Position numbers and translations under genes: made by a program
The notes under the pieces: generated by a model
What the model saw: only the letters and a program-made list of their open reading frames with translations
What the model was told of the DNA's origin: nothing
Database searches by the model: none
Source of the DNA: a virus
Virus record (IMG/VR): IMGVR_UViG_3300035086_000100
Span: 35,060 to 99,059 of that record
Length of the DNA stretch: 64,000 bases
Direction: 5' to 3' (one strand)
Shown: positions 2,102 to 62,418 of the stretch, piece after piece
Layout: each line of letters opens with the position of its first letter
Numbering within the stretch: position 1 is the stretch's first letter

Positions 2102-2274
2102 GGGCGGGGCCGGCGCCACGGGTACCAGCCGGCGGCCTGGGACAAGGCCAGCAGGATCAGGCCCGCGAGCGTGAAGTCTGCGGTGAGGTCCGCGGTTCCG
2201 TGCCCGGCGACCTTGAGGATCAGGGCGATGGCGAAGGCCAGGGCTGCCGCTACGGCGACGGTGATGGCGAGCAC
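2098..2274 (-). CDS. 58-aa membrane protein
   Basis: This short gene starts at GTG 2274, with TAGGAGG upstream overlapping the stop of the previous gene, and ends in a GTGA overlap with the next. The product has two hydrophobic segments: residues ~1-21, rich in Ala/Val/Ile/Leu, and ~36-48 (LAGLILLALSQAA). A short basic tail (WRRPRP) follows. The strong ribosome-binding site and coupling on both sides support it. Small membrane proteins of this kind are usual in actinobacterial transfer clusters, but no role can be shown. Confidence 0.6.
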   Translation of the reverse strand: MLAITVAVAAALAFAIALILKVAGHGTADLTADFTLAGLILLALSQAAGWYPWRRPRP

Positions 2275-2283
2275 GGGAGCCTC

Positions 2284-2490
2284 CTACGCGGCGCGGGTCC
2301 GGCGCATCCGGGCGGCGACCTTCGCTATCTCGTTGTAGTCATAGGCCGGCCACCTGCCGAGCTGCCCGAGCGGCTCGATGCCGTTGCGGTCGATCCAGGT
2401 CCGCACCGTCGACGGGGGCACGCCCAGGATCCGGGCGGCGCGGGTGGGCGTGACCAGGTCATCGGGGTGCAGGGTGGCGCGGGGGGGCAT
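2284..2490 (-). CDS. excisionase-like HTH protein (68 aa)
   Basis: Start chosen at ATG 2490, where GGGGGTG lies just upstream; the frame is open to 2601 but that extension reads as non-coding. LVTPTRAARILGVPPSTVRT is a typical MerR/excisionase (HTH_17) recognition region, followed by a wing with RWPAYDYNEIAKVA. This is either a transcription regulator of the cluster or an accessory DNA-bending factor. Confidence 0.68.
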   Translation of the reverse strand: MPPRATLHPDDLVTPTRAARILGVPPSTVRTWIDRNGIEPLGQLGRWPAYDYNEIAKVAARMRRTRAA

Positions 2491-2610
2491 AGGCACCCCC
2501 AACGCCGCGAAGGCCCGCAGGCAAGCGCGGCGGCGGCATGCATGCGGGCACAACTGTGTTACGGGCGCTAGCGTCTCACTCTCTGTAGCGCAAGTCAACA
2601 CGGTCCGTGA

Positions 2611-3468
2611 TCAGGCGGCTTGGCGCTGCCTTCGGTGCTCGGCCTCCAGTGCCGCCATCTGAGCCTGGTACACACGCGCCATCAGGAGGGTGAACTGCTG
2701 GCCGGCGTAAGCCTGCGGGCACGCCGTGCACCTCACTATTTCCTCCCATCCGCCCTCCCGTGCCTCGTACTGCACCAGCGTCAGCGCATCGCAGCCGTAC
2801 CCGTCGCACGCCACTTCGGTGATGCGGCGGCGCTGCCGGTTCAGGCCCAGCATGCCCCGTGCTCTCCCGGCGATGGCCAGGAACTCAAGCCCCGCGTCGG
2901 TGCCGCCCATCTCGCGGAACTCCCACGCGTCCCCCGCCGAGTCGAAGAACAGCACCAGGCCCGGGTTCGTCTCCGCCAGTTCGGCCAGCCGCGACGGGGA
3001 GGCGTAGCGGGATTTCGGTTCCGGTTCCAGGGACAGCAGCGTGTCCAGGTGCCCGTCCGGCCCCAGGGTCCGGCACGCGTCCGATAGCGCTTTCCCGTCC
3101 CGGCGCTGGCCGGCAGGGTAGTCCGACAGCCGGGCGACCGCCCTGCTTTGCTCTTCCCACCCGACCGCGACCAGCACCATCTCCCGCATGAACGCCTCCA
3201 CGTCCGCCGCCACGGGGATGGGTGCCTCGCGTGACCCGGATACCCGTTCCCCTGCCTGGCCGGTCCTGGGCAGCATCAGGGCCAGGTTCGCGTACGCTTC
3301 GGGGAGCCAGCCGATCGTGCGGCCGATCCAGTCGCGGCAGGTCAGGCAGAACGCCCGGGGGCAGAGCGCGGCGTTGCCCTGGTAGTCGGCTTCCGCGCAT
3401 CTCCGTCCGTTCGCGCAGGGGGTTCCGGAGTCGTTTTCCCCGTCGATGTCCGGGCCGTACCGTGCCAT
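2611..3468 (-). CDS. zinc-binding protein of unknown function (285 aa)
   Basis: Two cysteine clusters are visible. The N-terminal one has CANGRRC, CPRAFCLTC and a nearby Trp. The C-terminal one has CDGYGCD and CTACP, forming a probable zinc ribbon. The central part is helical (EAFMREMVLVAVGWEEQ). Proteins with this layout occur near replication and transfer genes in actinobacterial plasmids and phages, but no activity is established. A GGGAG sits about 9 bases before the ATG. The start overlaps the 3' part of the gene at 3342-3632 by 127 bases. Confidence 0.72.
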   Translation of the reverse strand: MARYGPDIDGENDSGTPCANGRRCAEADYQGNAALCPRAFCLTCRDWIGRTIGWLPEAYANLALMLPRTGQAGERVSGSREAPIPVAADVEAFMREMVLVAVGWEEQSRAVARLSDYPAGQRRDGKALSDACRTLGPDGHLDTLLSLEPEPKSRYASPSRLAELAETNPGLVLFFDSAGDAWEFREMGGTDAGLEFLAIAGRARGMLGLNRQRRRITEVACDGYGCDALTLVQYEAREGGWEEIVRCTACPQAYAGQQFTLLMARVYQAQMAALEAEHRRQRQAA

Positions 3469-3632
3469 GGGCGATCACTCCCGGTGCGCATTGGATGCAC
3501 AGAGAGTAACGCGCCGAGAGGGCGGGGATCAGCGGCGGCGTAGTTCACGTGCAGCAGCAGACCGAGCTTGCAGCGCTGCTCAGGCGTCAGCGGCGGAGCC
3601 TTGTCGACCAGTGCGCGGATGTAGTCGTCCAT
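3342..3632 (-). CDS. small helical protein, 3' end uncertain
   Basis: The first ~28 residues (MDDYIRALVDKAPPLTPEQR, then CKLGLLLH) look like a short protein often found in actinobacterial plasmids and phages next to regulatory genes. From about residue 60 the composition becomes Arg/Thr/Pro-rich and overlaps the next gene by 127 bases in another frame, which suggests that the last third is not natural coding. The true stop was probably earlier and lost, or a frameshift is present. The N-terminal half is real with fair confidence. Confidence 0.5.
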   Translation of the reverse strand: MDDYIRALVDKAPPLTPEQRCKLGLLLHVNYAAADPRPLGALLSVHPMRTGSDRPWHGTARTSTGKTTPEPPARTDGDARKPTTRATPRSAPGRSA

Positions 3633-3648
3633 CGGCCAGCGGTGACAG

Positions 3649-4134
3649 TCAGACTTCCATGATCCTCGGCGCGTCCGGCGACTCGTCAGCCAGCATCGAG
3701 GCGAACTGGTCCAGCATCGCGGTCTCGGACGGCTTCAGCTCTCCCCGGCCCACCCGGGCTATCGCGTCCTTCCACCGCTCGGACATGTTCACCGGCTCTA
3801 CCGCCGTCGCCGCCAGCGCGTTCACGATCCGGGGATCGGTACCCTCAGGCACGCGGAACCGGAACGTGCAGTAGGTCGGGTCGAAGTCGTCGTCAGCATC
3901 GCAGATGCAGTCCGGGTGCGCCGCGAGCGCGTCATTGACGGCCTTGTAGTCCGCGCGGTTCGGCCCGCCGGTCCTGGTGTACACCGCGATCACCGGGCCG
4001 TCCTCGCCTCGCTCGGCCCACGCGTCCCGGAACCGGGCTACCTCCGGGTTGCCGAGCAGGCCCAGCAGCAGCGCTCCCCGCTCGGCCTGCTTCCCGTCAC
4101 CCAGCACCACGTCGTAGAGGCCCATGGGCGCCAT
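3649..4134 (-). CDS. hypothetical phage/plasmid protein (161 aa)
   Basis: No known domain. The protein begins MAPMGLYDVVLGDGKQ; the second ATG at 4125 is an equally possible start, since neither has a good ribosome-binding site. It is acidic overall, with DADDDFDPTYC in the middle and a helical C-terminal half. It follows WhiB in the leftward operon after a 181-base gap with no gene. Confidence 0.68.
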   Translation of the reverse strand: MAPMGLYDVVLGDGKQAERGALLLGLLGNPEVARFRDAWAERGEDGPVIAVYTRTGGPNRADYKAVNDALAAHPDCICDADDDFDPTYCTFRFRVPEGTDPRIVNALAATAVEPVNMSERWKDAIARVGRGELKPSETAMLDQFASMLADESPDAPRIMEV

Positions 4135-4315
4135 GATGCCGCAGGCGGGGAGCGGTTTTCAGCCGGCCGGCCTTACGTCCGGCACTCGCACGGAACAGCC
4201 CGGAGTAGCCCCTAGCGGTGCGTGGCGTACCTGACGGCGCACACAAGGAAGCGGCGGGGGGTGCCCATGACCTCGAGGCTCCCACCGCCGCCGGATTCGC
4301 GGAGTACGTCACGCA

Positions 4316-4609
4316 CTATGCGGCCCTTGCCCGCCGTTTCAGTCCCTTACGCTGATTCGGGCTCAACCCCCCGTAGACACCCCAGCGCTCGTCATGCTCC
4401 AGCGCGAACTCAAGGCAGGGTGTTCTCACGGGACAAGCCCGGCATACCTGCTTGGCTGCCCTGGTCCCGCCGCCCTTTTCCGGATAGAAAATTTCGGGAT
4501 CAGTCTCGGCGCACAGCGCGAGGTCTTGCCACGCCGGTCCCTGTGCGTTCACGTCCGGTCCGATGCCGGGATCGCCGGGCATGATCCTGATGATTTCGTC
4601 CATCGTCAT
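4316..4609 (-). CDS. WhiB-family iron-sulfur transcription factor
   Basis: The four cluster-binding cysteines are present (LCAETD, then VCRACPVRTPC). They are followed by the WhiB signature GVYGG and the basic tail KGLKRRARA that contacts DNA. Length (97 aa) is normal for the family. WhiB proteins are actinobacterial [4Fe-4S] proteins that act with the principal sigma factor, and plasmid and phage copies usually reprogram host or element transcription. It sits near the end of the transfer-like operon. The start at ATG 4609 has an AAGGA-type site upstream. Confidence 0.93.
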   Translation of the reverse strand: MTMDEIIRIMPGDPGIGPDVNAQGPAWQDLALCAETDPEIFYPEKGGGTRAAKQVCRACPVRTPCLEFALEHDERWGVYGGLSPNQRKGLKRRARAA

Positions 4610-4621
4610 TCCTTAACTTGC

Positions 4622-5287
4622 CTAGCGGACCGCGCTGTACCCGAGGAACGCCAGCAGGATCACCAGCGCGGGCGTGACGACCAGCACCTCAGGGCGAGTT
4701 GCCGTAGTGAAAGCAAACGGCTCGGGCAGCAGCCTGAACCGGTACCGGGAGAACGGCAGCAGCAGCGGGCAGCCTGAGTCCGTGCACATGTCCCCGGTGA
4801 TGTGGGTGGCGCATCCCAGCCCCACCGCGAGCGCTACGAGGGACAGGCCGGTACCGGTGGCTGTCATCGCGACCGCCCCGCCGATAGCGAGAGCATCGGA
4901 CCAGTGGCCGCCGAGCCGCAGCGCGATCAGCGCCCCGGCCAGGATGAGCGTCAGCAGCACGCCGAGCCCGATGCGTCCGGCAGTGTCGTGCCGGTACTGC
5001 ACCGCCAGCCACGCCAGGACCGTGAACACCGCGACGCCGATGAGCGTGTGGGTGCCGTGCCGGTGCCCGCCGGAGACCTTGCCTACCAGCCAGGCGAACG
5101 AGTGCGTCGCGAAGCCGAACGAGCGGGCCAGGGTGGAGTTCGGGTGATCGATGTCCGGGAGTACCGCCGCGCCGGCAGTCAGGCCGGCCATGAGCGCGGC
5201 CTGCGGGAGCGGCAGGTGCAGGACGTAGATGCTCGCTGCCGAGCCCGTCACCGCGCCGGAGAGCGCATGGGTATGCCCGAGGCACAT
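4622..5287 (-). CDS. YdjM-like (DUF457) predicted membrane metal-dependent hydrolase
   Basis: The N-terminus reads MCLGHTHALSGAVTG, followed by LPDIDHPNS and GGHRHGTHTL. These conserved His/Asp groups are typical of the DUF457/YdjM family of inner-membrane proteins annotated as metal-dependent hydrolases. Several hydrophobic segments follow, and a second conserved patch (THITGDMCTDSGC) lies near residue 170. Homologues are common in actinobacterial mobile elements, where their substrate is not known. The gene is tightly packed between its neighbours. Confidence 0.85.
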   Translation of the reverse strand: MCLGHTHALSGAVTGSAASIYVLHLPLPQAALMAGLTAGAAVLPDIDHPNSTLARSFGFATHSFAWLVGKVSGGHRHGTHTLIGVAVFTVLAWLAVQYRHDTAGRIGLGVLLTLILAGALIALRLGGHWSDALAIGGAVAMTATGTGLSLVALAVGLGCATHITGDMCTDSGCPLLLPFSRYRFRLLPEPFAFTTATRPEVLVVTPALVILLAFLGYSAVR

Positions 5288-5289
5288 GG

Positions 5290-5580
5290 CTAGCCGGCCG
5301 CGATAACGATTATGTCGGTCGGGTGGGCTGGCCAGCAGCCATCAGGGTCATCGTCGGCCACGATGTACACGGTCCGCTCGCCGTTCTCGCCGTGCTCCTG
5401 GTAGTCCGCTTCCGTGATCACCGGCCAGCGGCCTGACCTGTCGGGCATGACTCCCATCCGGTGGCCGCCGACCAGGATCATCCCGGGCTTGGCCTCCCCT
5501 GCCGTGATCCGCTTCACCGGGAAACCGGGCTTCCCTGTCATTCCGGCCGCCGTCCGCAGCCTGTTCGCGAGCCTGCTCAT
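5290..5580 (-). CDS. hypothetical protein (96 aa)
   Basis: Start chosen at ATG 5580, preceded by a GGGGAG; the open frame extends to 5631 but into the translocase gene. No domain is recognised. The middle reads GEAKPGMILVGGHRMGVMPD, a small beta-rich pattern. It lies between the translocase and the YdjM-like gene in the transfer operon. Confidence 0.65.
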   Translation of the reverse strand: MSRLANRLRTAAGMTGKPGFPVKRITAGEAKPGMILVGGHRMGVMPDRSGRWPVITEADYQEHGENGERTVYIVADDDPDGCWPAHPTDIIVIAAG

Positions 5581-5593
5581 CGGTTTCTCCCCT

Positions 5594-7720
5594 TCAGTTC
5601 TCTGCGTTGACGAGCGACCGGTACCGGCCACCGCCGAGGTCTTCGGCCACGCCGACCGCTACCAGGTTGCGGAGCGCCTGATCAGCGGAGAACGCGTCCG
5701 TGTCGGCCATCTGCGACACGTCATACAGATCCATCACGCCCCTGCTGGCCAGCCATGCGGCCAGCAGAGGGACGGTGACGGGCTTCGACTCCGGCGGCTG
5801 CGGCAGGTCACCCGAGTCGTGTCGACGGGGCGCGGGCGCATCCTGGGCGGGCGGCGACCAGCGCGGCCCGGCACCCGGTCCGCTGACGACACGGCGAAGC
5901 TCGGCGGTCACCGCGAACGGCAACTGGGAGTCCTTGACGCCATCCGGCAGCGCGGCTATCGCCTCGATCAACTGCGAGCCGTCCAGCACCGACAGCCGGC
6001 CGCCCCACCCGAGCGGCCTGATGACCGCCTCGATCTCGGGGCCGAGTTCCACCACGTCGAGGGAGATCTTCTCGGCCAGTTCCCGCACGTCCGGGCCGTC
6101 CTCGCCCGGCTTGACGTACTCGGGCAGGTGCTTGGTCCGCATCGTCGTAGACGGCCGGTTGTCCGTGCCGTGCAGAAAGCCAAGCCCGTGCACGCCGGGG
6201 GCCAGCGCCGACGTGTCGCCCTGCACGCCCAGCATGTGCTTGCTTAGCCCGTCCGTGCGGTGAGACAGGACATTGAACGCCTTCAGCAATTCGCGGATCG
6301 CCCGCAGGCCCAGTTCGGTGAGGTCCGGCATCTGGACGACCACCTTGACTTTCACGCCGACCTTGCGGCCCTCCATGATGATCGCGGCGACCAGCGGAAT
6401 CGCGATCTTCGACAGCACCGGGTCGCGGACGATCTTCGGCCACTCGTCGATCGTCACGTCGATGATCGGGTTCTCCGGGGTCGGGTCGAACGAGCCCTTG
6501 CCGGTGTTGACCCTGCCCAGGTGGTCGGTCCAGGTCTGGTCGCCGAACCGGGCGGCGCGGTCGCACATGAGAGCGTGCGCCATGATGATCATCTGCACGC
6601 ACGCCTCAAGGCCCCATGCCATCTGGTCGGCGAAGCCCTTCCAGACCGCGAGGGGCTGGCGCTGCGGGTCACCCATCCACAGGGCAATGATCCGCTTGCC
6701 GTCGACCTTCGCCTGGCCTTCCTCGCAGGCGATGACCAGCAGGGAGCCCGTCTTGCCGGATCCCTGCTGGCCGGCCAGGATCCCGGCGGCGACTCCCGAC
6801 CCGGGTATGTGCAGCAGCCAGTGAGCGTCCTCGCCGTCCGCGTACCGCCCGATCCTGACCTTCCCTGTCGCCGGGTCATACGTCGACTTGCCGTCCCACT
6901 TGTCAGCCCGGTTCCACGCGTTCTTGCGGGTCAGAACCGTCACGATCGCCCGCCGCTCCGACCGGTCCGCCGTGTACTCCACGGTGACCTGGTCCCTGCT
7001 CACGTCGAACTGGGCGGCGACCTTCGGGATCAGCGCGAACAAGTCGCCTGTCGTGGTTTCCGACCCGGCGGGCAGCTCGATTTCCAGCGCGAACCCGTCT
7101 TTCACGTCCCGCAGAGAATGGAACCGGGCGCCCTTGCACGGGCCTGACTGCCCGAACCTGGCACTGAACGCCGTCAGCCTCGGGTCAGGAGGAGGGGGAG
7201 CAGCCGGCGCGGGCGCGGGCGGCTCAGGCGGGGGCTCGGGCCGCTTGCGCGCCCGGTACAGGCCGGGAGCGGCGACGGCCAGGCCGCCGCCGAGCATCAC
7301 GAGCTGGCCCCAGCCGTTCAGGACACCCGCAGCGGTCCCTGCCGCCATGGCGGTGCAGCACGCCGCGCACGACGCCCAGGCGGCCTGCCTGCGCGCCCGT
7401 GCCCGGCCCAGCCTGCGCGCCGACGCGCCGTCAGCGGCGAGCCGGGCGGAGATCCTCGCGTGTCGCACCGCCACCCTGACCGCAGCGACCGTGCACGGGG
7501 CAGCGACCAGGGCGTAACCCCACGGCCAGCCGATCGCGTGGCCGCCGGCAACGAGGCCGTCCGCGCCGGCTACCGCGGACAGCGAGGCCAGCGCCCGGTG
7601 CTGGCGCAGGTAGGCGGCCGGGGCGCTGCCCGGCGGGGTGAACTCGGGCGGGTCCGGGTCCGGGCACGGCTTCGACACGGCGCTCTTGCCGCCGGCGGGC
7701 TTCTTCGCGGTCGGTGCCAT
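5594..7720 (-). CDS. FtsK/SpoIIIE-type DNA translocase (TraB-like transfer protein)
   Basis: A 708-residue ATPase. Residues ~40-155 contain two to four hydrophobic segments (membrane anchor), and a Pro/Ala linker lies at ~160-180. The motor domain carries the Walker A motif GQQGSGKT at ~317-324 and a Walker B motif in PIIDVTIDEWPKIV near 420. The C-terminal ~65 residues form a winged-helix-like region (VPLLAAWLASRGVMDLYDV). In Streptomyces plasmids and AICEs, TraB proteins of this class pump double-stranded DNA between hyphae without a relaxase. ATG 7720 has GGAG about 10 bases upstream and is preferred to the earlier in-frame starts. Its place with a DUF2637 protein in one operon supports a transfer role; the substrate sequence (clt) is not identified. 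Confidence 0.88.
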   Translation of the reverse strand: MAPTAKKPAGGKSAVSKPCPDPDPPEFTPPGSAPAAYLRQHRALASLSAVAGADGLVAGGHAIGWPWGYALVAAPCTVAAVRVAVRHARISARLAADGASARRLGRARARRQAAWASCAACCTAMAAGTAAGVLNGWGQLVMLGGGLAVAAPGLYRARKRPEPPPEPPAPAPAAPPPPDPRLTAFSARFGQSGPCKGARFHSLRDVKDGFALEIELPAGSETTTGDLFALIPKVAAQFDVSRDQVTVEYTADRSERRAIVTVLTRKNAWNRADKWDGKSTYDPATGKVRIGRYADGEDAHWLLHIPGSGVAAGILAGQQGSGKTGSLLVIACEEGQAKVDGKRIIALWMGDPQRQPLAVWKGFADQMAWGLEACVQMIIMAHALMCDRAARFGDQTWTDHLGRVNTGKGSFDPTPENPIIDVTIDEWPKIVRDPVLSKIAIPLVAAIIMEGRKVGVKVKVVVQMPDLTELGLRAIRELLKAFNVLSHRTDGLSKHMLGVQGDTSALAPGVHGLGFLHGTDNRPSTTMRTKHLPEYVKPGEDGPDVRELAEKISLDVVELGPEIEAVIRPLGWGGRLSVLDGSQLIEAIAALPDGVKDSQLPFAVTAELRRVVSGPGAGPRWSPPAQDAPAPRRHDSGDLPQPPESKPVTVPLLAAWLASRGVMDLYDVSQMADTDAFSADQALRNLVAVGVAEDLGGGRYRSLVNAEN

Positions 7721-10852: not shown

Positions 10853-10950
10853 CGGGTACCGCCTCGCGCGCGCGGGCACGCGCAGGTGCATGCCTGCATG
10901 TGCATCCCCGCGTTGGGGGTTCCGGCAGGGCTCAGTTCCGGGCTGGTCAC
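10849..10950 (-). CDS. 33-aa cysteine-containing micro-ORF
   Basis: GTG 10950 overlaps the stop of the DUF2637 gene (GTGA), and its own stop overlaps the next GTG (GTGA). This double coupling is the only evidence for translation. The peptide contains HMQACTCACPRA. It may only serve to carry ribosomes from one gene to the next. Confidence 0.35.
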   Translation of the reverse strand: MTSPELSPAGTPNAGMHMQACTCACPRARGGTR

Positions 10951-11840
10951 CTGTCCGCTCCTTCCGTCTCGCGTGCCGTCTCATCCAGTTCGGGCAGCCA
11001 CTTGGACCGCATCTGCCGGCCCAGGCTGCTGGACGCCGAGAGCCCGGCCGCGCGGACCAGGTCGGCACCGGACGGCGCGGGCCTGCCCGCCTGGATCTCG
11101 GTGTCCCAGTAGGTGCGCATCACCTGGGCGGCGCCGTTGTTGCTCCCGGGCGGACCCGGGGGGATGCACTGCCCGGCGGTGATCGCCAGCTCCCGCGCGT
11201 GGCCGCCGGCGACCGGCAGGCGGCTGACGGGGCTGACGGACTGGCTGGCGGCCCTGACGATTTCCGCCTGACGCTCCGCGATGGCGGCGCGACGCCCGGC
11301 CGCCTGACGCTGACGCTCTTCTTCCGCCTGACGGTCTTCTTCCGCCTGACGGTCGGCGGCCTGACGCTGACGCTCAAGCTCCGCCTGACGCTCGGCCTCC
11401 GCCGCTATCGCCTGACGCTCGGCCAGGCCCTTGCGGGCCGCCTCGGCTGCCCGCCGCTCCATGAGGGAGATCGCCAGCATGAGGAACAAGCCGGGGATCG
11501 CGGCCGTGATGTACCCCCACGCCGACGACTGCGCCCCGGCGAGGTTCCCGGCCAGGGTCAGGCCGATCCCGAAGATCATCACGATGGTGGGCCACGACAT
11601 CCAGCCGCGGCGCTTGCGCCCGGTCCTGATGTCGCGCTGCCGCTCGCGGGCAGCCATCAGCACCCCGAGGTCCACGCACACGGCGATCAGCGGCGCCAGG
11701 ACGCCGGGCTGGCCGTGGCCCGATGCCAGCCGCGTCCAGTGGTCGAACGAGCCGCCGAACGCGATCAGCGCGAGGGCGAGCGGGATGCCGTTGTCGGCGA
11801 CCGCCCGCCCGAAGCCGTTCCCGTCCCCGGCGGCGCTCAC
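10947..11840 (-). CDS. DUF2637 (Spd-type) membrane protein with coiled coil
   Basis: Start GTG 11840 overlaps the upstream stop (GTGA); about 297 residues. The N-terminal half has four hydrophobic segments in the DUF2637 pattern: SFDHWTRLA, then LAPLIAVCVDLGVLMAARE, IVMIFGIGLTLAGNLAGA and the segment ending LMLAISLMERR. Residues ~130-195 form a Gln/Glu/Arg-rich coiled coil with repeats of RQAEE. The C-terminal ~70 residues contain a probable winged-helix/HTH (GADLVRAAGLSASSSLGRQ). DUF2637 proteins in Streptomyces plasmids are linked to intramycelial plasmid spread. With the FtsK-like gene this is the best evidence for conjugative transfer. Confidence 0.8.
   Translation of the reverse strand: MSAAGDGNGFGRAVADNGIPLALALIAFGGSFDHWTRLASGHGQPGVLAPLIAVCVDLGVLMAARERQRDIRTGRKRRGWMSWPTIVMIFGIGLTLAGNLAGAQSSAWGYITAAIPGLFLMLAISLMERRAAEAARKGLAERQAIAAEAERQAELERQRQAADRQAEEDRQAEEERQRQAAGRRAAIAERQAEIVRAASQSVSPVSRLPVAGGHARELAITAGQCIPPGPPGSNNGAAQVMRTYWDTEIQAGRPAPSGADLVRAAGLSASSSLGRQMRSKWLPELDETARETEGADR
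11264..11400. repeat. low-complexity repeat encoding a coiled coil
   Basis: The motif CCGCCTGACG(C/G)(T/G) recurs at 9- to 18-base steps, including two consecutive copies of an 18-base unit TCTTCTTCCGCCTGACGG. It lies inside the DUF2637 gene and encodes (RQAEE)n-like heptads. Confidence 0.65.
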
Positions 11841-19581: not shown

Positions 19582-19650
19582 AAGCACCCCCGGCCCCTCT
19601 GCGCCGTGCCCGCTGTTACCAGGCGCGGAACGAGGGAACCGGGGGTGCTT
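19582..19650 (+). terminator. large hairpin terminator
   Basis: AAGCACCCCCGG (19582-19593) and CCGGGGGTGCTT (19639-19650) are perfect 12-bp complements enclosing a smaller GCGCC/GCGC stem. It lies 27 bases after the last gene of the operon and has an A-tract upstream, so it could work in both directions. Confidence 0.68.
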
Positions 19651-19799
19651 CCGGTAGTGGTGCGGCGGTGGCAAATCGTCGCGCCAGCCAGCGTAGCAAG
19701 ACGGCGGATGACGGGAAGGGTGATCCGGTAGCCGCCCGGGACGCGGCTGGCGGGCGGGCGGCGCTCTTGCTACCGTGACCCTGCAGCGCAGCGAGAAAA

Positions 19800-19848
19800 G
19801 GATCAGCCCGCTACCGCGAACTCCCCGATCGCGGCGGCGGGCTGATCC
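19800..19848. terminator. second large hairpin
   Basis: GGATCAGCCCGC (19800-19811) pairs perfectly with GCGGGCTGATCC (19837-19848), with an inner CCGCGA/TCGCGG stem on the same axis. It is a terminator or structural insulator ahead of the integrase. Confidence 0.6.
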
Positions 19849-20051
19849 GCTTCGCCGCCCCGGTGCAGGCCCGGAACCGGGGGATAAGGGGTTCCTGCCC
19901 CGCGGAGGGACGGCTTCCGCCCGGAGGACCGGAGCACGGGGGTGACTCCGCCTGGCCGGGCTGGATCCACTATCGCACGGCGTTGGCGGGCACGCAGCGA
20001 TTGGCGGGCGAAACGGCGTGGCTGGCGCCAGAATGTCCCGCGCTCAGGTAC

Positions 20052-20097
20052 CTGTGCAAGGGCATCTGCCGACGTATCGGCAGAGATGCCTGCACAG
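20052..20097. other. 46-bp hyphenated palindrome, putative attachment site
   Basis: CTGTGCA (20052-20058)/TGCACAG (20091-20097) and TGCCGA (20067-20072)/TCGGCA (20077-20082) share one symmetry axis between bases 20074 and 20075. The central dinucleotide is GT. It ends 13 bases before the serine integrase start. Size, imperfect symmetry and position fit the attP of large serine integrases; an operator for the integrase gene is the alternative. Confidence 0.5.
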
Positions 20098-20110
20098 ATA
20101 CGATGCCGCG

Positions 20111-21499
20111 ATGAGTGAGGCACTGAGCGCCGCCGTGTACTGCCGCATGTCACTGGCCGTCATGGGCGACACGACGAAGGTCGAGGACCAGGAGCGGATC
20201 TGCCGGGAACTGTGCGAGCGGCTTGGCTGGCGGGTGCATGACGTGTACGCCGACAACAACAAGTCGGCGTGGCAGAAGAACCGCAAGCGCCCGGCCTGGG
20301 ACCGGATGCTCGCCGACGTCGACGCGGGCCTGATCGGCGCGATCGTGGTCTACCACGGCGACCGGCTGGTGCGGCGGCCTCAGGATCTCGCCAAACTCAT
20401 CGAGCTGGCCGACAGCAAGGGCCTGCGGCTGGCCTCGCCGACCGGCACGCGCAACCTCGACAACGGCGACGACCGGTTCATCGTGTGGATCGAGGCCGCC
20501 GCGCAGGAGCGCTCCTCCTATGACACGTCGCGGCGCAAGATCACCCAGTACGAGCGGATGCGGCGTGAAGGCAAGGTGCGCCCTGGCGGCAGGGGCGGCC
20601 GGTCCTACGGCTTCCGGGGCGACAACCTGACGATGATCGAGTCGGAGGCCGCGAACCTGCGGGAGGCCGCCGCCCGGATCCTGGGCGGGGAGGGCGCCGG
20701 GGCGGTCGCCGCCGACTTCACCGCGCGGGGCATCGTGACCCAGACCGGGATCCCGTTCACCTACGCCACCTTGCCGCAGCTCCTCAAGCGCCCGCGGTAC
20801 GCGGGCCTGATGCCGGACGGGGTACAGCAGGCGGCATGGGAGCCGGTGCTGGAGCGGTCGCAGTGGGAGGCGCTGCGCGCGGTGCTCGGAAACCGGTCGG
20901 CCGGGTACGGGTACGCGGTGAACTCGCGCCGCTACCTGCTGTCCGGGATCGCCGAGTGCGGGTTCGGGGACTGCGGGGCGCCGCTGCAGATCCGGCACAC
21001 CCGGGTCCGCGGCGACGGGCCGCCGAACGTCGGCTACGCCTGCATCAGGCCGGGCTGCCGCAAGACCTACCGGTCGCGGGTGATGCTCGACGCCTACGTG
21101 AGCCAGCGGGTGGTCTCGCTGCTGAACCAGGAAGGCAACCCGGAGCCGGCGGCGCCGCGGACGCCGGGGCTGGCCGAGCGGTACGCGGCGGCGGACGCGC
21201 AGCGCCGCGAGATCGAGGAGGTTCTCGCCGACCCGTCGCGGGGGTCGGTCCCGGCGCTGCTGAAGCGGCTGGACCGGGTGAACGCGACGCTGGCGGAACT
21301 GAGGGACCTGTCGGCGGGCGACGCCCGGTCCCGGCTCAGGACCCGGTACGCGGGCCTGACCCTGGAGGAGTTCAGGGGCCTGCCGCTGGCGGTGCGCCGC
21401 TCGCTGGTGGCCGCCTACTTCCGGGTCGTCGTCCTGCCGTCGTCGAAGAAAGGGCCGGGGTTCCGCACCGAGGACGTCCGGATGATCCCGCGCGGCTGA
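20111..21499 (+). CDS. large serine recombinase (integrase)
   Basis: ATG 20111 is the start; the upstream extension is non-coding and holds the palindrome. The 462-residue protein has the resolvase domain with catalytic VYCRMS (Ser ~14), DRLVRRPQDL and the ERSSYDTSRR region. A recombinase domain follows (GRSYGFRG, LKRPRYAGL). A zinc ribbon (CGFGDCGAPL with CIRPGCRKTY) and a C-terminal coiled coil (ERYAAADAQRREIEEVLADP) complete it. This is the full architecture of phiC31-type integrases, which recombine attP and attB without host factors and need a directionality factor to excise. A candidate for that factor is the gp3-like gene at 27525. Confidence 0.93.
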   Translation: MSEALSAAVYCRMSLAVMGDTTKVEDQERICRELCERLGWRVHDVYADNNKSAWQKNRKRPAWDRMLADVDAGLIGAIVVYHGDRLVRRPQDLAKLIELADSKGLRLASPTGTRNLDNGDDRFIVWIEAAAQERSSYDTSRRKITQYERMRREGKVRPGGRGGRSYGFRGDNLTMIESEAANLREAAARILGGEGAGAVAADFTARGIVTQTGIPFTYATLPQLLKRPRYAGLMPDGVQQAAWEPVLERSQWEALRAVLGNRSAGYGYAVNSRRYLLSGIAECGFGDCGAPLQIRHTRVRGDGPPNVGYACIRPGCRKTYRSRVMLDAYVSQRVVSLLNQEGNPEPAAPRTPGLAERYAAADAQRREIEEVLADPSRGSVPALLKRLDRVNATLAELRDLSAGDARSRLRTRYAGLTLEEFRGLPLAVRRSLVAAYFRVVVLPSSKKGPGFRTEDVRMIPRG

Positions 21500-23399: not shown

Positions 23400-23921
23400 A
23401 TGCACGCACGATCGGCAGCGACGGTAGCTGCGCTAGAGGCCGAGGTCGGCCGTCAGCTGACCGGGCCCGAGGTCGGGGCCATGTTCCGGGTCGACCCCAA
23501 GACCGTGACCCGCTGGGCACGCCAGGGCAAGCTCACGGCGGGCAGGACCCCGGGCGGGCGGCGGCTGTACAGCGAGCGGGAGGTCGCGGATCTCCTGCGC
23601 AGGCAGACCTGCCATCCGGCGCCCGGTCAGCCCGTCCGGCCCGTCCTGCCCGTGAAGGCAGGCCCGACAGCCGAGACGCTGGCCGAGGTAGCGGCGCTGA
23701 ACGCCGACTACCCGGGCTGGCACGTGTGGCTGTCCGACGCCGGGATGGTGTACGCCACGTGCAACCGGCCCTCCGCCGTGGACCCGGGGCAGGCCGGGCT
23801 GACCGAGCACGCGGACGCGCCGTGGCGGATGCGGGCGGTCCTGGCCGGGTTCGAGACCGCTGACCGGGAGAAGGCGCGGCGGTCAAGCGCTGACGCGATG
23901 CTCGCCGCGTGGAGTGCCTGA
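23400..23921 (+). CDS. BldC-like HTH protein (173 aa)
   Basis: ATG 23400 has GAGAGGA upstream. Residues ~20-65 match the BldC/MerR-like DNA-binding domain (LTGPEVGAMFRVDPKTVTRW, RTPGGRRLYSEREVADLLRR). BldC itself is ~68 residues; here ~100 more follow with PGWHVWLSDAGMVYAT and a helical end. BldC-like proteins control development and often occur in actinophages. The C-terminal domain is unknown. Confidence 0.82.
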   Translation: MHARSAATVAALEAEVGRQLTGPEVGAMFRVDPKTVTRWARQGKLTAGRTPGGRRLYSEREVADLLRRQTCHPAPGQPVRPVLPVKAGPTAETLAEVAALNADYPGWHVWLSDAGMVYATCNRPSAVDPGQAGLTEHADAPWRMRAVLAGFETADREKARRSSADAMLAAWSA

Positions 23922-23953
23922 TGCCCGCCATCCACGTCGCCAGCGCCGCCGAG
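23915..23953 (+). repeat. 39-bp direct repeat, copy 1
   Basis: Covers the stop of the BldC-like gene and the first codons (MPAIHVASAAE) of the PP-loop gene. A copy with a single mismatch lies at 24847-24885, at the start of the next gene. Confidence 0.85.
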
Positions 23954-24853
23954 CCAGCAATCCGTGTTCTGAGCCTCGGTGCCGGAGTGCAGTCGACCAC
24001 GCTGCTGCTGATGTCGCTTGAGGGCATCCTGCCGAAGCTGGACTACGCGATCTTCGCCGACACCGACTGGGAGCCGAAGCGGGTCTACGACCACCTTGAC
24101 CTTGTAACCGAAGCGGCAGCAAGTGCGGGGCTTCCCGTGCTGCGCGTCAGTAGCGGCAACCTCCGGGCCGACACGATCGACCCAGTCCACCGATACGCGT
24201 CGATCCCGTACTTCATCAAGAACGCCGACGGCAGCCTCGGCATGGGGCGCCGGCAGTGCACCAGCGAATACAAGCTGGCCCCGATCCGCCGCAAGGTCCG
24301 CGAACTGCTCGGCGCTAACGCACCCGACTTCAGGCGAGTTCCGAGAGGCCGGGTAGCAGAGCAGTGGGTCGGCTTCAGCGCTGACGAGATCGGGCGCGTT
24401 AACGACAGCTACAGCGTCCTGTACCAGCGGGCCGCGTACCCGCTGCTTGACCTTGGCATGGACCGCAAGGCATGCGAGCGGTGGCTGCGGTCGCGCGGCT
24501 GGACCTCGGTAGCCAAGAGCGCATGCATCGGGTGCCCGTTCCACGGCAACAAGCAATGGCGCGACCTCCGCGACAACAATCCCGCCGAATGGGCGGACGC
24601 GGTGGAGTTTGACCGCGCCATCCGGAAAGGCGGCGGCAAGGGCATCCCGCTGAACGGCGAGGCATTCCTGCATTCGTCGCGCGTGCCGCTCGATATCGCG
24701 CCCATCGACCGGGTCACCTCGGCTGAGTGGAAATCCCGCCAGGGTGACCTCCTCGACATCATCGCCGATGAGGAGATGGCCGAGCAGGGCAACCCTGACG
24801 GCTGCTCGCCTTACGGCTGCCGCTCCGGTGCACGGCTGGGTGGTGCTGCCTGA
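23921..24853 (+). CDS. PP-loop (PAPS-reductase-like) enzyme
   Basis: ATG 23921 shares one base with the previous stop (TGATG); 310 residues. The N-terminal VLSLGAGVQSTTLLLM is a P-loop for the N-type ATP pyrophosphatase fold, and FADTDWEPKRVYDHL and the MGRRQCTSEYKL region follow. A conserved CIGCPFH and a late CSPYGC could bind metal or a cluster. Phage genes of this type are annotated as phosphoadenosine phosphosulfate reductases, though many probably adenylate or thiolate nucleic acid or other substrates, like DndC. No sulfate-assimilation gene is nearby, so a role in DNA or RNA modification is the more attractive guess. Confidence 0.82.
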   Translation: MPAIHVASAAEPAIRVLSLGAGVQSTTLLLMSLEGILPKLDYAIFADTDWEPKRVYDHLDLVTEAAASAGLPVLRVSSGNLRADTIDPVHRYASIPYFIKNADGSLGMGRRQCTSEYKLAPIRRKVRELLGANAPDFRRVPRGRVAEQWVGFSADEIGRVNDSYSVLYQRAAYPLLDLGMDRKACERWLRSRGWTSVAKSACIGCPFHGNKQWRDLRDNNPAEWADAVEFDRAIRKGGGKGIPLNGEAFLHSSRVPLDIAPIDRVTSAEWKSRQGDLLDIIADEEMAEQGNPDGCSPYGCRSGARLGGAA

Positions 24854-34375: not shown

Positions 34376-35355
34376 TGCCCCGCACCGAAGCGCGCATCTT
34401 CACGACCATCTGGCGCGATGAGGACTTCCTGGCACTGCCGGCGGGTGCCCAGCGGCTCTACATGTTCCTGCTGAGCCAGGACGACCTGTCCTACTGCGGG
34501 GTGATGCCGCTGCGCGAGCGGCGCTGGGCGGGCAAGGCCGCGGGCCTGTCGCTGCATGACGTGGAAACGGACCTCAAGGCGCTGGAGACGGCCGGGCGCA
34601 TGTTCGTCGTCACCGACGAGGACACCGGGGAGCTGCTGGTCCGCGCGATGATCCGGCGTGACGGCGCGTGGAAGCAGCCCAACTTGCTCAAGCAGGCCCG
34701 CGAGTCCGCCGAGCAGATCGAGTCATCCAAGATACGTGCCCACCTGCTGACTGAGCTGCAGCGCCTGCCCGTCTGCGAGTCACCATCAGAGCAGGTCAAG
34801 ACCCTGGTCGCTGATTTCATAATAGATCTTGAACAGGGTAAGCCGAAGGGTAAGGCTTACCCTGAGCCGGACCCAAGCGACGACCCTCCGGCCGACCCTA
34901 CGGGCGAGGGTTCGGCCAACGGCAGGGCCGAGGGTGCGGCTAAGGACAATGCGTGCGCGCGGGAGCTTGGAGTACGTAACGGTAGTAACCAACGTCTTCT
35001 CCAAGCTCCTACCTCCGAAGCTCCAAGTTCTTTGCCGGCGCGGGATCGAAAACTCGGCACGTACCTGCCTGAGCCCTTCGTCGTTACCGACGAAATGAAG
35101 ACCTGGTTCCGCCAGCACTGCGCCCACGTCAATGCCCGGTTCGAGCACGACAAGTTCCTCGACCACTGGCGCGGCAAGCCCGGCAAGGACGGCCGCAAGG
35201 TCGACTGGGTTGCCACCTGGCGGAACTGGATGCGCAACGCCGAGCAGCGTTCCGCCCCCCGCCACCGCGGCGGCAGCCAGCGCCAGGAAGCAACCGACGA
35301 ATGGACCGAGCGCGCGCTGAGCCGTGCTCAGGCACGGCAAGGAGAACCCGCATGA
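34375..35355 (+). CDS. lambda-O-like replication initiator (326 aa)
   Basis: The N-terminal ~100 residues are a winged helix (RTEARIFTTIWRDEDFLALP, AQRLYMFLLSQDDLSYCGVM, then an ETDLKALETAGRMFVV-type wing). A disordered, charged linker (~150-240) is encoded by the repeat cluster at 34835-35026. The C-terminal ~80 residues (FVVTDEMKTWFRQHCAHVNA, WRNWMRNAEQ) match the end domain of phage replication proteins. Together with the following gene this is the initiator plus loader pair of many Gram-positive phages. The family match of the N-terminal domain is good; the origin is inferred. Confidence 0.75.
   Translation: MPRTEARIFTTIWRDEDFLALPAGAQRLYMFLLSQDDLSYCGVMPLRERRWAGKAAGLSLHDVETDLKALETAGRMFVVTDEDTGELLVRAMIRRDGAWKQPNLLKQARESAEQIESSKIRAHLLTELQRLPVCESPSEQVKTLVADFIIDLEQGKPKGKAYPEPDPSDDPPADPTGEGSANGRAEGAAKDNACARELGVRNGSNQRLLQAPTSEAPSSLPARDRKLGTYLPEPFVVTDEMKTWFRQHCAHVNARFEHDKFLDHWRGKPGKDGRKVDWVATWRNWMRNAEQRSAPRHRGGSQRQEATDEWTERALSRAQARQGEPA
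34835..35026. repeat. AGGGT repeat cluster inside the initiator gene (possible origin)
   Basis: AGGGTAAG lies at 34835-34842 and 34847-34854 with inverted CTTACCCT at 34856-34863. Further AGGGT/ACCCT cores follow near 34882, 34895, 34907 and 34931, seven in all. A 10-bp inverted repeat GGAGCTTGGA/TCCAAGCTCC (34962-34971, 35000-35009) lies to the right. Confidence 0.5.
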
Positions 35356-51424: not shown

Positions 51425-52417
51425 TCACGTTTGCTCCCTCGCTAGCCGGCGCCGCTCGGAAAGGACGGTCCCGGATCGCTTGTTGCGGCGGAACCTGGCC
51501 CGGTCATACCGCTGCGTTGTTCGGCCGTCCTTGTGCCCTGCCGTGTCCTGAACGATCTCCATCGCCACGCCGGCATCGCGGGCGTGCGTGATGTGGGAGT
51601 GCCTCAGTGAGTGCGGGTTCAACTTCGGCCACGACCTGATCCCGGCCTGCCGCGCTAGCCGACGCACGAGCCGCCACACGTCCTGCTCTATCAGAGCGAC
51701 CCCGGTGCGAGTCGTGAACAGCGGCTCATGCGGACCCGGTTCGCCGCGAGTCGCCAGGTAGGCGCCAAGCGCGTCGCTGGCCTCAGTCTCGATGACGTAC
51801 CGCCGTTCGGTGCCGCCCTTGAGTATGAGCCGCAGGCTGCGCTCACCCTGATCCCAGCCGAGATCGCCGATCGTGGCACCGAGGACCGACCCGACCCGGA
51901 ACGCTCCGAAGTACAGGACCGAGATCAGCGCGAGCGCCCGCGGGCTGTCGGCTCCGGCCTGGTCGAGCAGCGCGTCTATCTCGTCGACGCTGAGGCCGGT
52001 AGCCGGGGACACATCGCGGTCTATGTTCGGCCGCCCGGTGGCCTTGGCCGGGTTCCGCTCGGTAACTTCCTCGCCGATGAGGTAGTCGTACCAGCTGCTG
52101 ATCGCAGAGAGTTTCCGCGCCCTGGTGCCAGGGGAGTGGCCGTCCGCTTCGAGCAACTTGGCGTAGACGGCTACATGCCGCTTGCGCGCGGTGAGCGGGT
52201 CGAGACTGTTACTGGCGCACCACGGCAGCCACGCGGGAGTCTGCATCTTCGCGGGCTTGCCGTTCGTGCCGACCCCGATCAGGTCGCGCCGGTACGCGTT
52301 CAGGGTGTGGACGCTCTTGAGCCCGGCCAGCCAGCCGAAGGTAGCGCCCGCGAAGTCTTCCGCCGGGTTTTCGAGGACGGCAGGCAGCGCGTTGCCGGCG
52401 AGGGCGATCTCGGTCAT
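51425..52417 (-). CDS. tyrosine recombinase (phage-type integrase, 330 aa)
   Basis: The N-terminal core-binding domain (SVHTLNAYRRDLIG; KLSAISSWYDYLI) precedes the catalytic domain with the first Arg in LYFGAFRVGSVLG, Lys in LILKGGTERR, HSLRHSH, the second His in DTAGHKDG and the nucleophile in TTQRYDRARF. All catalytic residues are present. Such enzymes recombine attP with attB, often in a tRNA, but no tRNA or att repeat is visible here. It is the second integrase of the window. ATGA overlap with the small upstream gene. Confidence 0.93.
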   Translation of the reverse strand: MTEIALAGNALPAVLENPAEDFAGATFGWLAGLKSVHTLNAYRRDLIGVGTNGKPAKMQTPAWLPWCASNSLDPLTARKRHVAVYAKLLEADGHSPGTRARKLSAISSWYDYLIGEEVTERNPAKATGRPNIDRDVSPATGLSVDEIDALLDQAGADSPRALALISVLYFGAFRVGSVLGATIGDLGWDQGERSLRLILKGGTERRYVIETEASDALGAYLATRGEPGPHEPLFTTRTGVALIEQDVWRLVRRLARQAGIRSWPKLNPHSLRHSHITHARDAGVAMEIVQDTAGHKDGRTTQRYDRARFRRNKRSGTVLSERRRLAREQT

Positions 52418-60192: not shown

Positions 60193-62418
60193 CTAGGTCA
60201 CCGCCCCTGCCGTAATCTCTCCGCGGACAGGACCGGCTCTGGCTTGCTGCACCACGTGACCGGCGGCGAACGCCGTCACGATGCCGCCGGCCCTGACCAG
60301 GGCGGTGAAGGTGAGGGTGAACGACCCGCTGGCGGCCGAGACGGTGACCGCGGCGCCGACGAGGAAGATGCCGGACAGGATGTCCGCGGCGGTCACGCTG
60401 ACCGTGACCGACGTGCCGGCGAGAGTGACCGCGACCGTCAGCGCGGCAGCGGTGCCCGAATGGCCCGAAGCGGTGCCGGCCAGGGCGGCGGTCCAGGCGA
60501 GAGCCCCGGCCGACCCGGAGACGGTGACGGCAGGCCCGGTCAGCGCGGCGATCTGCGCGAGCGCCCCCGACGCGATTCCCGCCGATGCCGCTGTTCCCGC
60601 CAGGGCTTCAAGCCCGGACAGGGCGGCAGTGCTGGAAGACGACGCCGATGCTGTTCCCGCGATGACGGCGGTCCAGGCGAGAGCGCCCGAAGCGGACGGG
60701 GACGAGGCAGCGGACCCGCTGATAGCGGCAGTCCATGCCAGCGAGCCCGAAGCCGCGGCGGCCGAAGCGCTCAAGCCAGCCAGGACGGCAAGCCATGCTA
60801 GCGACCCGGCCGAGGTGCTGGCCGTTGCACACGAACCCGCGAGGCTCAGCGCCTGCGTGAAGTCGCCGGCGGACGTGCCCGGGGTTGCGGCGGTCCCGGC
60901 CAGGACCATCGCCTGGGCGAGCGAGCCCGTTGCGGTTGCAGCGGTTGCGGCTGTACCGGCGAGCGATCCGGGTGTTCCGAAATCGCCTGCGGCACTGCTG
61001 GCGGTCGAGCCCGTTCCCGAGATGACGGTCAGCCATGCGAGGCTGCCCGCCGCGGCAGACGTGCACGGCGCGGTGCCGCTGAGGCTCATCTGCTGCGCGA
61101 GAGCCCCGGCCGACGACGACGCTGACGACGCCGTCCCGGCCAGGACCGCGGTCCAGGCGAAGGCGCCAGCCGACGACGAAACGGAGGCAGCCGACCCGGC
61201 GATGACCGCAGACCACGCGAGGCTGCCCGATGCGGAACCGGCGCTGGAAGCGGTGCCGGACAGCGCGGCGGCCCACGCGAGTGACCCGGCCGCGGACGAT
61301 GCCGAAGCCGACGCGCCGGCGATCGCGACCAGCGGGAGCGCCCCGGCCGCAGATGAAGCCGTTGAGGCGGTACCCGCTACGACTGCGGTCCAGGCAAGCG
61401 AGCCCGCGGCGGAAGACGACGGAGCCGCGGTGCCCGAGAGAGCGGCCTGCCACGCCAGCGCCCCCGACGCCGTGCTGACCGGTGACGCCGTGCCCGCGAG
61501 CGCCGCAGTCCACGCGAGGGCACCAGTGGCGGCAGGGGAGTTTGCCGCAGTACCCGAGATGACCGCAGACCAGGCCAGCGAACCGGACGACGACGAAGAT
61601 TGCGACGCGGTTCCGGCGAGGGCGGCCCGCCACGCCAGCGACCCCGCAGCCGAGCTGGAAGCCGGCGCCGTGCCGGCGAGGACGGCGGTCCAGGCCAGTG
61701 CCCCGGCGGACGTGCAGGTCGTCGTGCCGGTCCCGGCCAGCGTCCAGGCGGTCGCCCCGGACGCCAGCTGGAACGCGACGAGGATGGTTTCCCAGCCGTC
61801 GACCGCGGAGCCGGACAGGGACCACGACGCCGACTCGGCTGCGCTGGTGCTGTTCTTGTAGGAGCAGAACAGGGTCGCGGAGCCGTTGGCGTTGACGTTG
61901 GCGGCGTCCGCGGTGTACCCGGTGGCGTTGGTGACGGTGACGCCGTCGCCGGGGTCGCCGTAGACGCCGAGCAGGTACTCGTTCGCGGCGGCGGTGGTGT
62001 AGGCGCCGGAGGTGGCCGGGCTGGCGGTGCCGTGGTTCTTCCCGCCGGTCCCGTCGATCATCGCCGTGGTGTTGCCGGCCAGGAGCCCGGAGACTTCCTG
62101 GGCCAGCATGGTCACGCCGAAGTTCGTGCTGACCGTCGCGGTGATCGTCGGCTTGGTCCCGACGTCGCCGGAGGGGGTGTCCATCGCCCAGACTTCGACG
62201 AAAACGGCACCGGACAGGACTACCGAGACGAGCTTGGTCAGCGCGTTATTCGAGCCGTCCTTGACCGCGGTGACGGGCTCGACCCCGCCGGAGGAGTTGG
62301 ACACGCAGATCGCGCAGATGATCTTGCTGCCTGATGACAGGTTCGCTGCAGTGAAGGTGACGGTGCCGTTGCCGGAGGTGACGGTGTGGGAGGCGGACTG
62401 CAGGCGTGACCAGGCCAC
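60193..62418 (-). CDS. repeat-containing tail-fibre/adhesin-like protein (741 aa)
   Basis: The N-terminal ~220 residues are a beta-rich domain (HTVTSGNGTVTFTAANLSSG) such as found at the base of phage fibre proteins. From ~221 to ~698 there are about 23 copies of a 20-residue unit with consensus G-(A/S)-L-A-W-x-A-x-(L/I)-(A/S)-G-T-A and a Ser/Ala-rich end. The last ~45 residues are hydrophobic/basic. A regular 20-residue period points to a solenoid or elongated beta-fibre for surface binding. No family known to me has exactly this repeat. Third-position GC stays high through the array. Confidence 0.7.
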   Translation of the reverse strand: MAWSRLQSASHTVTSGNGTVTFTAANLSSGSKIICAICVSNSSGGVEPVTAVKDGSNNALTKLVSVVLSGAVFVEVWAMDTPSGDVGTKPTITATVSTNFGVTMLAQEVSGLLAGNTTAMIDGTGGKNHGTASPATSGAYTTAAANEYLLGVYGDPGDGVTVTNATGYTADAANVNANGSATLFCSYKNSTSAAESASWSLSGSAVDGWETILVAFQLASGATAWTLAGTGTTTCTSAGALAWTAVLAGTAPASSSAAGSLAWRAALAGTASQSSSSSGSLAWSAVISGTAANSPAATGALAWTAALAGTASPVSTASGALAWQAALSGTAAPSSSAAGSLAWTAVVAGTASTASSAAGALPLVAIAGASASASSAAGSLAWAAALSGTASSAGSASGSLAWSAVIAGSAASVSSSAGAFAWTAVLAGTASSASSSAGALAQQMSLSGTAPCTSAAAGSLAWLTVISGTGSTASSAAGDFGTPGSLAGTAATAATATGSLAQAMVLAGTAATPGTSAGDFTQALSLAGSCATASTSAGSLAWLAVLAGLSASAAAASGSLAWTAAISGSAASSPSASGALAWTAVIAGTASASSSSTAALSGLEALAGTAASAGIASGALAQIAALTGPAVTVSGSAGALAWTAALAGTASGHSGTAAALTVAVTLAGTSVTVSVTAADILSGIFLVGAAVTVSAASGSFTLTFTALVRAGGIVTAFAAGHVVQQARAGPVRGEITAGAVT
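60325..61758. repeat. 60-bp-period tandem repeat (about 23 units)
   Basis: Each unit encodes 20 residues of the fibre-like protein. Units differ in sequence at the DNA level, so the array is old or diversified; one unit is 19 residues long. The opposite strand is open for long stretches only because of this composition. Confidence 0.85.

Follow-up and report, generated by a model that had tools for sequence, protein, structure and literature searches.

The stretch of DNA analysed here, referred to below as the window, comprises 64,000 nucleotides and runs from base 35060 to base 99059 of a virus record that is 99,059 bases long. Within its first 33 kb the record encodes capsid, portal, terminase, and tail-type proteins, and the window itself carries genes for recombination, replication, and an endolysin. 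On the plus strand at 20111-21499 lies a gene for a large serine integrase of 462 amino acids, which contains a Resolvase domain (PF00239) and a Recombinase domain (PF07508), the catalytic Ser14 within YCRMS, and the zinc-ribbon cysteines. The protein matched the phage integrase family phrog_95. Immediately upstream of this gene is an imperfect palindrome. The terminase, portal, and capsid genes lie to one side of it, and those for recombination, replication, and the endolysin to the other; this arrangement in the 99-kb record shows that the site is internal to the phage genome.

The nearest relatives found for the integrase were viral contigs with about 48-57% amino acid identity, the best segments of three of them (L107, L112, and L148) showing 49-58%. 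A near-identical integrase was sought in genomes so that attB could be read off a prophage; among full-length matches, which came from prophage-like loci of Streptosporangiales, the identity was only 39-46%, and in named phage records it reached about 31% at most. The same phage genome encodes a second, unrelated integrase of the tyrosine type (PF00589, 330 amino acids) at 51425-52417 on the minus strand. A match to it was observed in only 2 of the 18 relatives that have the serine integrase, and it could be the tyrosine enzyme, rather than the serine enzyme, that is used for lysogeny.

Several other genes were noticed in passing. A tail-type protein of 1267 amino acids (L036:2252-6055, minus strand; record 2252-6055) contains an apparent intein (Hint / Intein_splicing) before its NlpC/P60 domain. 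A Zeta-toxin-like kinase gene and a phosphoadenosine phosphosulfate reductase-like gene are present in the phage (L037:3516-4790, minus strand; window 23921-24853, plus strand). Eight degenerate 69-nt repeats occupy 60439-61704 within a 741-amino-acid gene (60193-62418, minus strand), for which no family match was obtained.

Sequence and symmetry of the palindrome

The palindrome at 20052-20097 reads CTGTGCA-AGGGCA-TCTGCCGA-CGTA-TCGGCAGA-GATGCC-TGCACAG, and the integrase ATG at 20111 follows after a gap of 13 bases (20098-20110). An earlier note had described it as two nested inverted repeats with one axis and GT at the centre, lying directly before the integrase. Indeed, the outer arms match at 7/7 positions and the inner arms at 8/8, and the matching of both pairs places their common axis between G20074 and T20075. 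The length of 46 bp given in that note held for this core, but the true symmetry runs wider: after one mismatch beyond the outer arms, three further pairs match (GTAcCTGTGCA / TGCACAGaTAC), so that 4 bp are added on each side and the palindrome extends over 54 bp at 20048-20101. The score of the 54-bp palindrome was 18 of 25 symmetric positions, and the ungapped count for the 46-bp form was 16 of 23.

The symmetry count alone is commonplace in 64 kb, since at least 16/23 was reached about four times per dinucleotide shuffle. The palindrome is nevertheless significant because it is placed in one short stretch before the integrase gene and because it folds far beyond shuffled sequences. When control stretches matched in width to that short stretch were scored, 18/25 was reached in just 0.8% of them; in folding, the palindrome had a z of -6.3 and none of 200 shuffles was as good. 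Furthermore, the pattern of matches is non-random, being concentrated in the outer and the inner blocks around a single axis. Two more strong inverted repeats, at 19582-19650 (29 nt, 72%) and 19795-19853 (25 nt, 84%), were observed in the non-coding stretch before the integrase gene; these may terminate transcription of the genes upstream.

The features of the site are those expected of an attP. Its length falls within the range of about 45-55 bp, and the central dinucleotide, GT, is non-palindromic. In the structure of an integrase of the A118 family bound to attP, the pseudo-palindromic site of A118 / Listeria innocua has 25-bp half-sites, of which about positions 1-13 are contacted by the recombinase domain and positions 16-24 by the zinc domain (PMC3783163). 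The symmetric blocks of the window lie at half-site positions 3-10 and 17-23, corresponding to these two regions. Accepting this likeness in layout between sites of unrelated sequence, we assigned the arms by position alone: the inner arms of P (TCTGCCGA, 20065-20072, plus strand; half-site positions 3-10) and P' (TCGGCAGA, 20077-20084, minus strand) are predicted recombinase-domain motifs, and the outer arms of P (GTAcCTGTGCA, 20048-20058, plus strand; half-site positions 17-27) and P' (TGCACAGaTAC, 20091-20101, minus strand) are predicted zinc-ribbon-domain motifs.

The corresponding position in relatives and the predicted integrase promoter

The region before the integrase gene was compared in 38 loci, including the window. 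Many of them carry a palindrome of approximately 54 bp, with differing sequences and differing central dinucleotides. Among the 32 loci with a predicted start (the window included), a palindrome scoring at least 14/25 was centred 30-37 bp before the integrase start in 17, whereas this was the case in only 1 of 160 control bands. The palindrome centre lay 31-39 bp upstream of the predicted start in 21 of the 32 loci and 24-28 bp upstream in seven others. About one third of the relatives showed no clear palindrome before the integrase gene; a prophage junction, or another start or layout, may account for some of these.

In the window, the centre is 36 bp before the ATG and a predicted -10 box, TACGAT (20099-20104, plus strand), lies at +24 from the centre, its first 3 bp being inside the palindrome. 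Identical geometry was observed in L107, L112, and L148. The direct relatives have other core dinucleotides and thus give GT no comparative support of its own. In a subgroup of seven loci (L123, L126, L136, L138, L140, L141, and L146), the distance between centre and start is 24-28 bp and the -10 box is found at +12 to +13. The box is closer to the centre by about 10 bp, or one helical turn, than it is in the other subgroup, where it is mostly at +22 to +26. A more distant group (L016, L018, L021, L023-L025, L029, L030, L033, and L034; approximately 35% identical) has a near-invariant GTGTATCTATGTGACCCATGCG right at the integrase start, which is probably the P' half-site of that group.

Leaderless promoters of actinobacteria have been reported to carry TANNNT about 7-12 bp before a transcript start that coincides with the start codon (PMC3898074). 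TANNNT was found 5-9 nt, nearly always 6-8 nt, before an in-frame ATG or GTG in 40 of 48 loci, compared with 4.0 expected from shuffles, and all 40 lack a Shine-Dalgarno sequence. The window likewise has no Shine-Dalgarno sequence, and its TACGAT-N6-ATG matches the leaderless form. From this pattern the integrase gene is predicted to be leaderless, with its start at 20111 and its -10 box placed at the outer end of the P' arm. A start at the upstream GTG at 20018 was also considered, in which case the palindrome would lie within the gene; it was rejected because both the leaderless pattern and the protein's typical N-terminus speak against it.

Calibration on prophages inserted in cpaF/tadA

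Six of the related integrases (L002 and L010-L014) directly follow a truncated cpaF/tadA gene, and in two genomes the remainder of this gene was found approximately 60-67 kb further on. The crossover in two such prophages, G044 and G059, was fixed by comparing attL with attR. In both, whose integrases are about 40% identical to that of the window, the crossover dinucleotide is GA and lies inside the cpaF/tadA gene, and joining attB again recovers the CpaF reading frame (..VVVGEVRGAEVVDLLAALNTGHEGG..). When attP was reconstructed from them, the best palindrome sat exactly on GA, with scores of 18/25 and 17/25, whereas the core score of the hybrid attL and attR sites was 5-8, against 18 in the window. 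These findings indicate that in this integrase branch the axis of the palindrome is the crossover and that high symmetry marks an undivided attP. The branch of L010-L014 and L002 inserts at one position of cpaF/tadA (..GEVRGxEVV|D..) in several Streptosporangiales genomes, the GA crossover having been determined in two.

The cpaF/tadA-targeting loci, which also include the viral contigs L124, L128, and L134, resemble the window in having an integrase about 40% identical to its own and a palindromic attP of approximately 54 bp, centred 34-36 bp before the start of a leaderless integrase gene. Unlike the window, they have a GA core, other arm sequences, and a known attB. The attB sites of the calibrated prophages hardly resemble their own attP outside the core, and the prediction of an attB from the attP arms of the window was for this reason abandoned. 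As neither an attB nor an integrated copy of the window integrase was found in the searched genomes, the crossover of the window was placed by analogy with these prophages, and we infer that it is GT at 20074-20075.

Identity and state of the site, and what it may mean

Taken together, the symmetry, the position, the fixed geometry in relatives, and the coincidence of crossover and axis in two related prophages lead us to regard the 54-bp palindrome at 20048-20101, with high confidence, as the attP of the serine integrase whose gene follows immediately. The proposal of the earlier note that the site is an attP with a GT core was thus borne out by these lines of evidence. The same note had left two states open, an element that is not integrated and a site that is one of attL/attR, and the results favour the former. 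An attL or attR would, as in the prophages, also be located directly before the integrase gene; however, hybrid sites lose their symmetry (5-8 at the core) and the window scores 18/25, phage genes lie on both sides, and neither a truncated host gene before the site nor a second half-site copy elsewhere in the 99-kb record was seen. We therefore consider a junction of an integrated element extremely unlikely. The undivided site and its phage flanks indicate instead that the record is a free or circularised phage rather than a prophage. A search of the 99-kb record for a second att site gave none, and a search of viral contigs with the half-site pattern yielded 48 matches, a number that by rough estimate is not above chance; a palindromic partner was lacking for every one of them. 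A phrog_733 'excisionase' match at 10947-11840 (minus strand) was considered as a directionality factor and dropped, as the protein is of the DUF2637 membrane type and matched nothing in the phage records; the PHROGs label on it looks unreliable.

The palindrome might instead act in RNA, as a hairpin in the 5' leader of the integrase mRNA serving as a terminator, an attenuator, or a block to translation. Its strong folding (-28.3 kcal/mol, with the z of -6.3 given above) agrees with this, but no T-run follows it as in a classical terminator, and TACGAT-N6-ATG, in the pattern shared by 40 of 48 loci, would make the transcript begin at the ATG itself and leave the hairpin upstream of it. A hairpin also leaves unexplained why the equivalent palindromes of relatives sit on the crossover point, and this reading is very unlikely. 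Alternatively, the palindrome could serve a repressor of the integrase gene as its operator, the true attP being elsewhere. The overlap with the predicted promoter and several small HTH/GntR-like genes upstream would suit a repressor; usual operators are shorter, however, and in two related prophages a palindrome at the same offset was split at its axis by integration. We regard a repressor operator as very unlikely, while a dual role, as attP and as an operator for the integrase itself, is conceivable.

Read as attP, the site would be bound by two integrase subunits at its two half-sites, each placing its recombinase domain on the inner arm and its zinc-ribbon domain on the outer one. The integrase would then cut around GT at 20074-20075, and the cut attP would recombine with a host attB having the same dinucleotide. 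As an attP, the site is of a well-known kind; here it belongs to an actinobacterial phage and overlaps the predicted integrase promoter. In the Streptomyces phage phiJoe, attP is an imperfect inverted repeat of up to approximately 50 bp that precedes a serine integrase gene by 18 bp and has GG, a non-palindromic dinucleotide, in the middle; the site was first recognised by sequence, and recombination later bore out the prediction (PMC5311408). The window shares this layout and differs in its integrase, its sequence, and its central GT, and its site is known from sequence, whereas that of phiJoe was confirmed by experiment. The attP of mycobacteriophage Bxb1 is also partly symmetric with a central 5'-GT, and its flanks at 18-24 are needed for efficient binding and recombination (PMC3642061); the integrases differ, and the common GT is probably a coincidence.

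If the integrase gene has a leaderless promoter with a -10 box that reaches into the outer end of the P' arm, integrase occupying attP (or attL) could prevent transcription of its own gene. The overlap of a recombination site with a recombinase promoter is not new in kind: in Tn4451/Tn4453, the circle junction is described as forming a promoter for the large resolvase TnpX (Lyras and Rood 2000, as cited in PMC13023037). As far as that citation describes it, TnpX resembles the window in this overlap and differs in that the -10 box of the window is in the arm that stays with the integrase gene, so that integration would not remove it. More tentatively, and with somewhat less than even confidence, we propose that throughout this branch attP doubles as the promoter-operator of the integrase gene, with a fixed -10 box in P', bound integrase silencing the gene, and the DNA upstream of the promoter changing at integration.

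Pairs of integrase and attP of such a kind serve as integration tools in actinomycetes. The present analysis provides a precisely placed, testable attP and crossover for an uncharacterised integrase to which the phage records searched contained no close relative. The rule that the axis is the crossover and that the centre lies about 34-38 bp before a leaderless start would make it possible to locate the attP of this branch in phage contigs even where no lysogen is available, and it prompts the question of whether these integrases repress themselves at attP.
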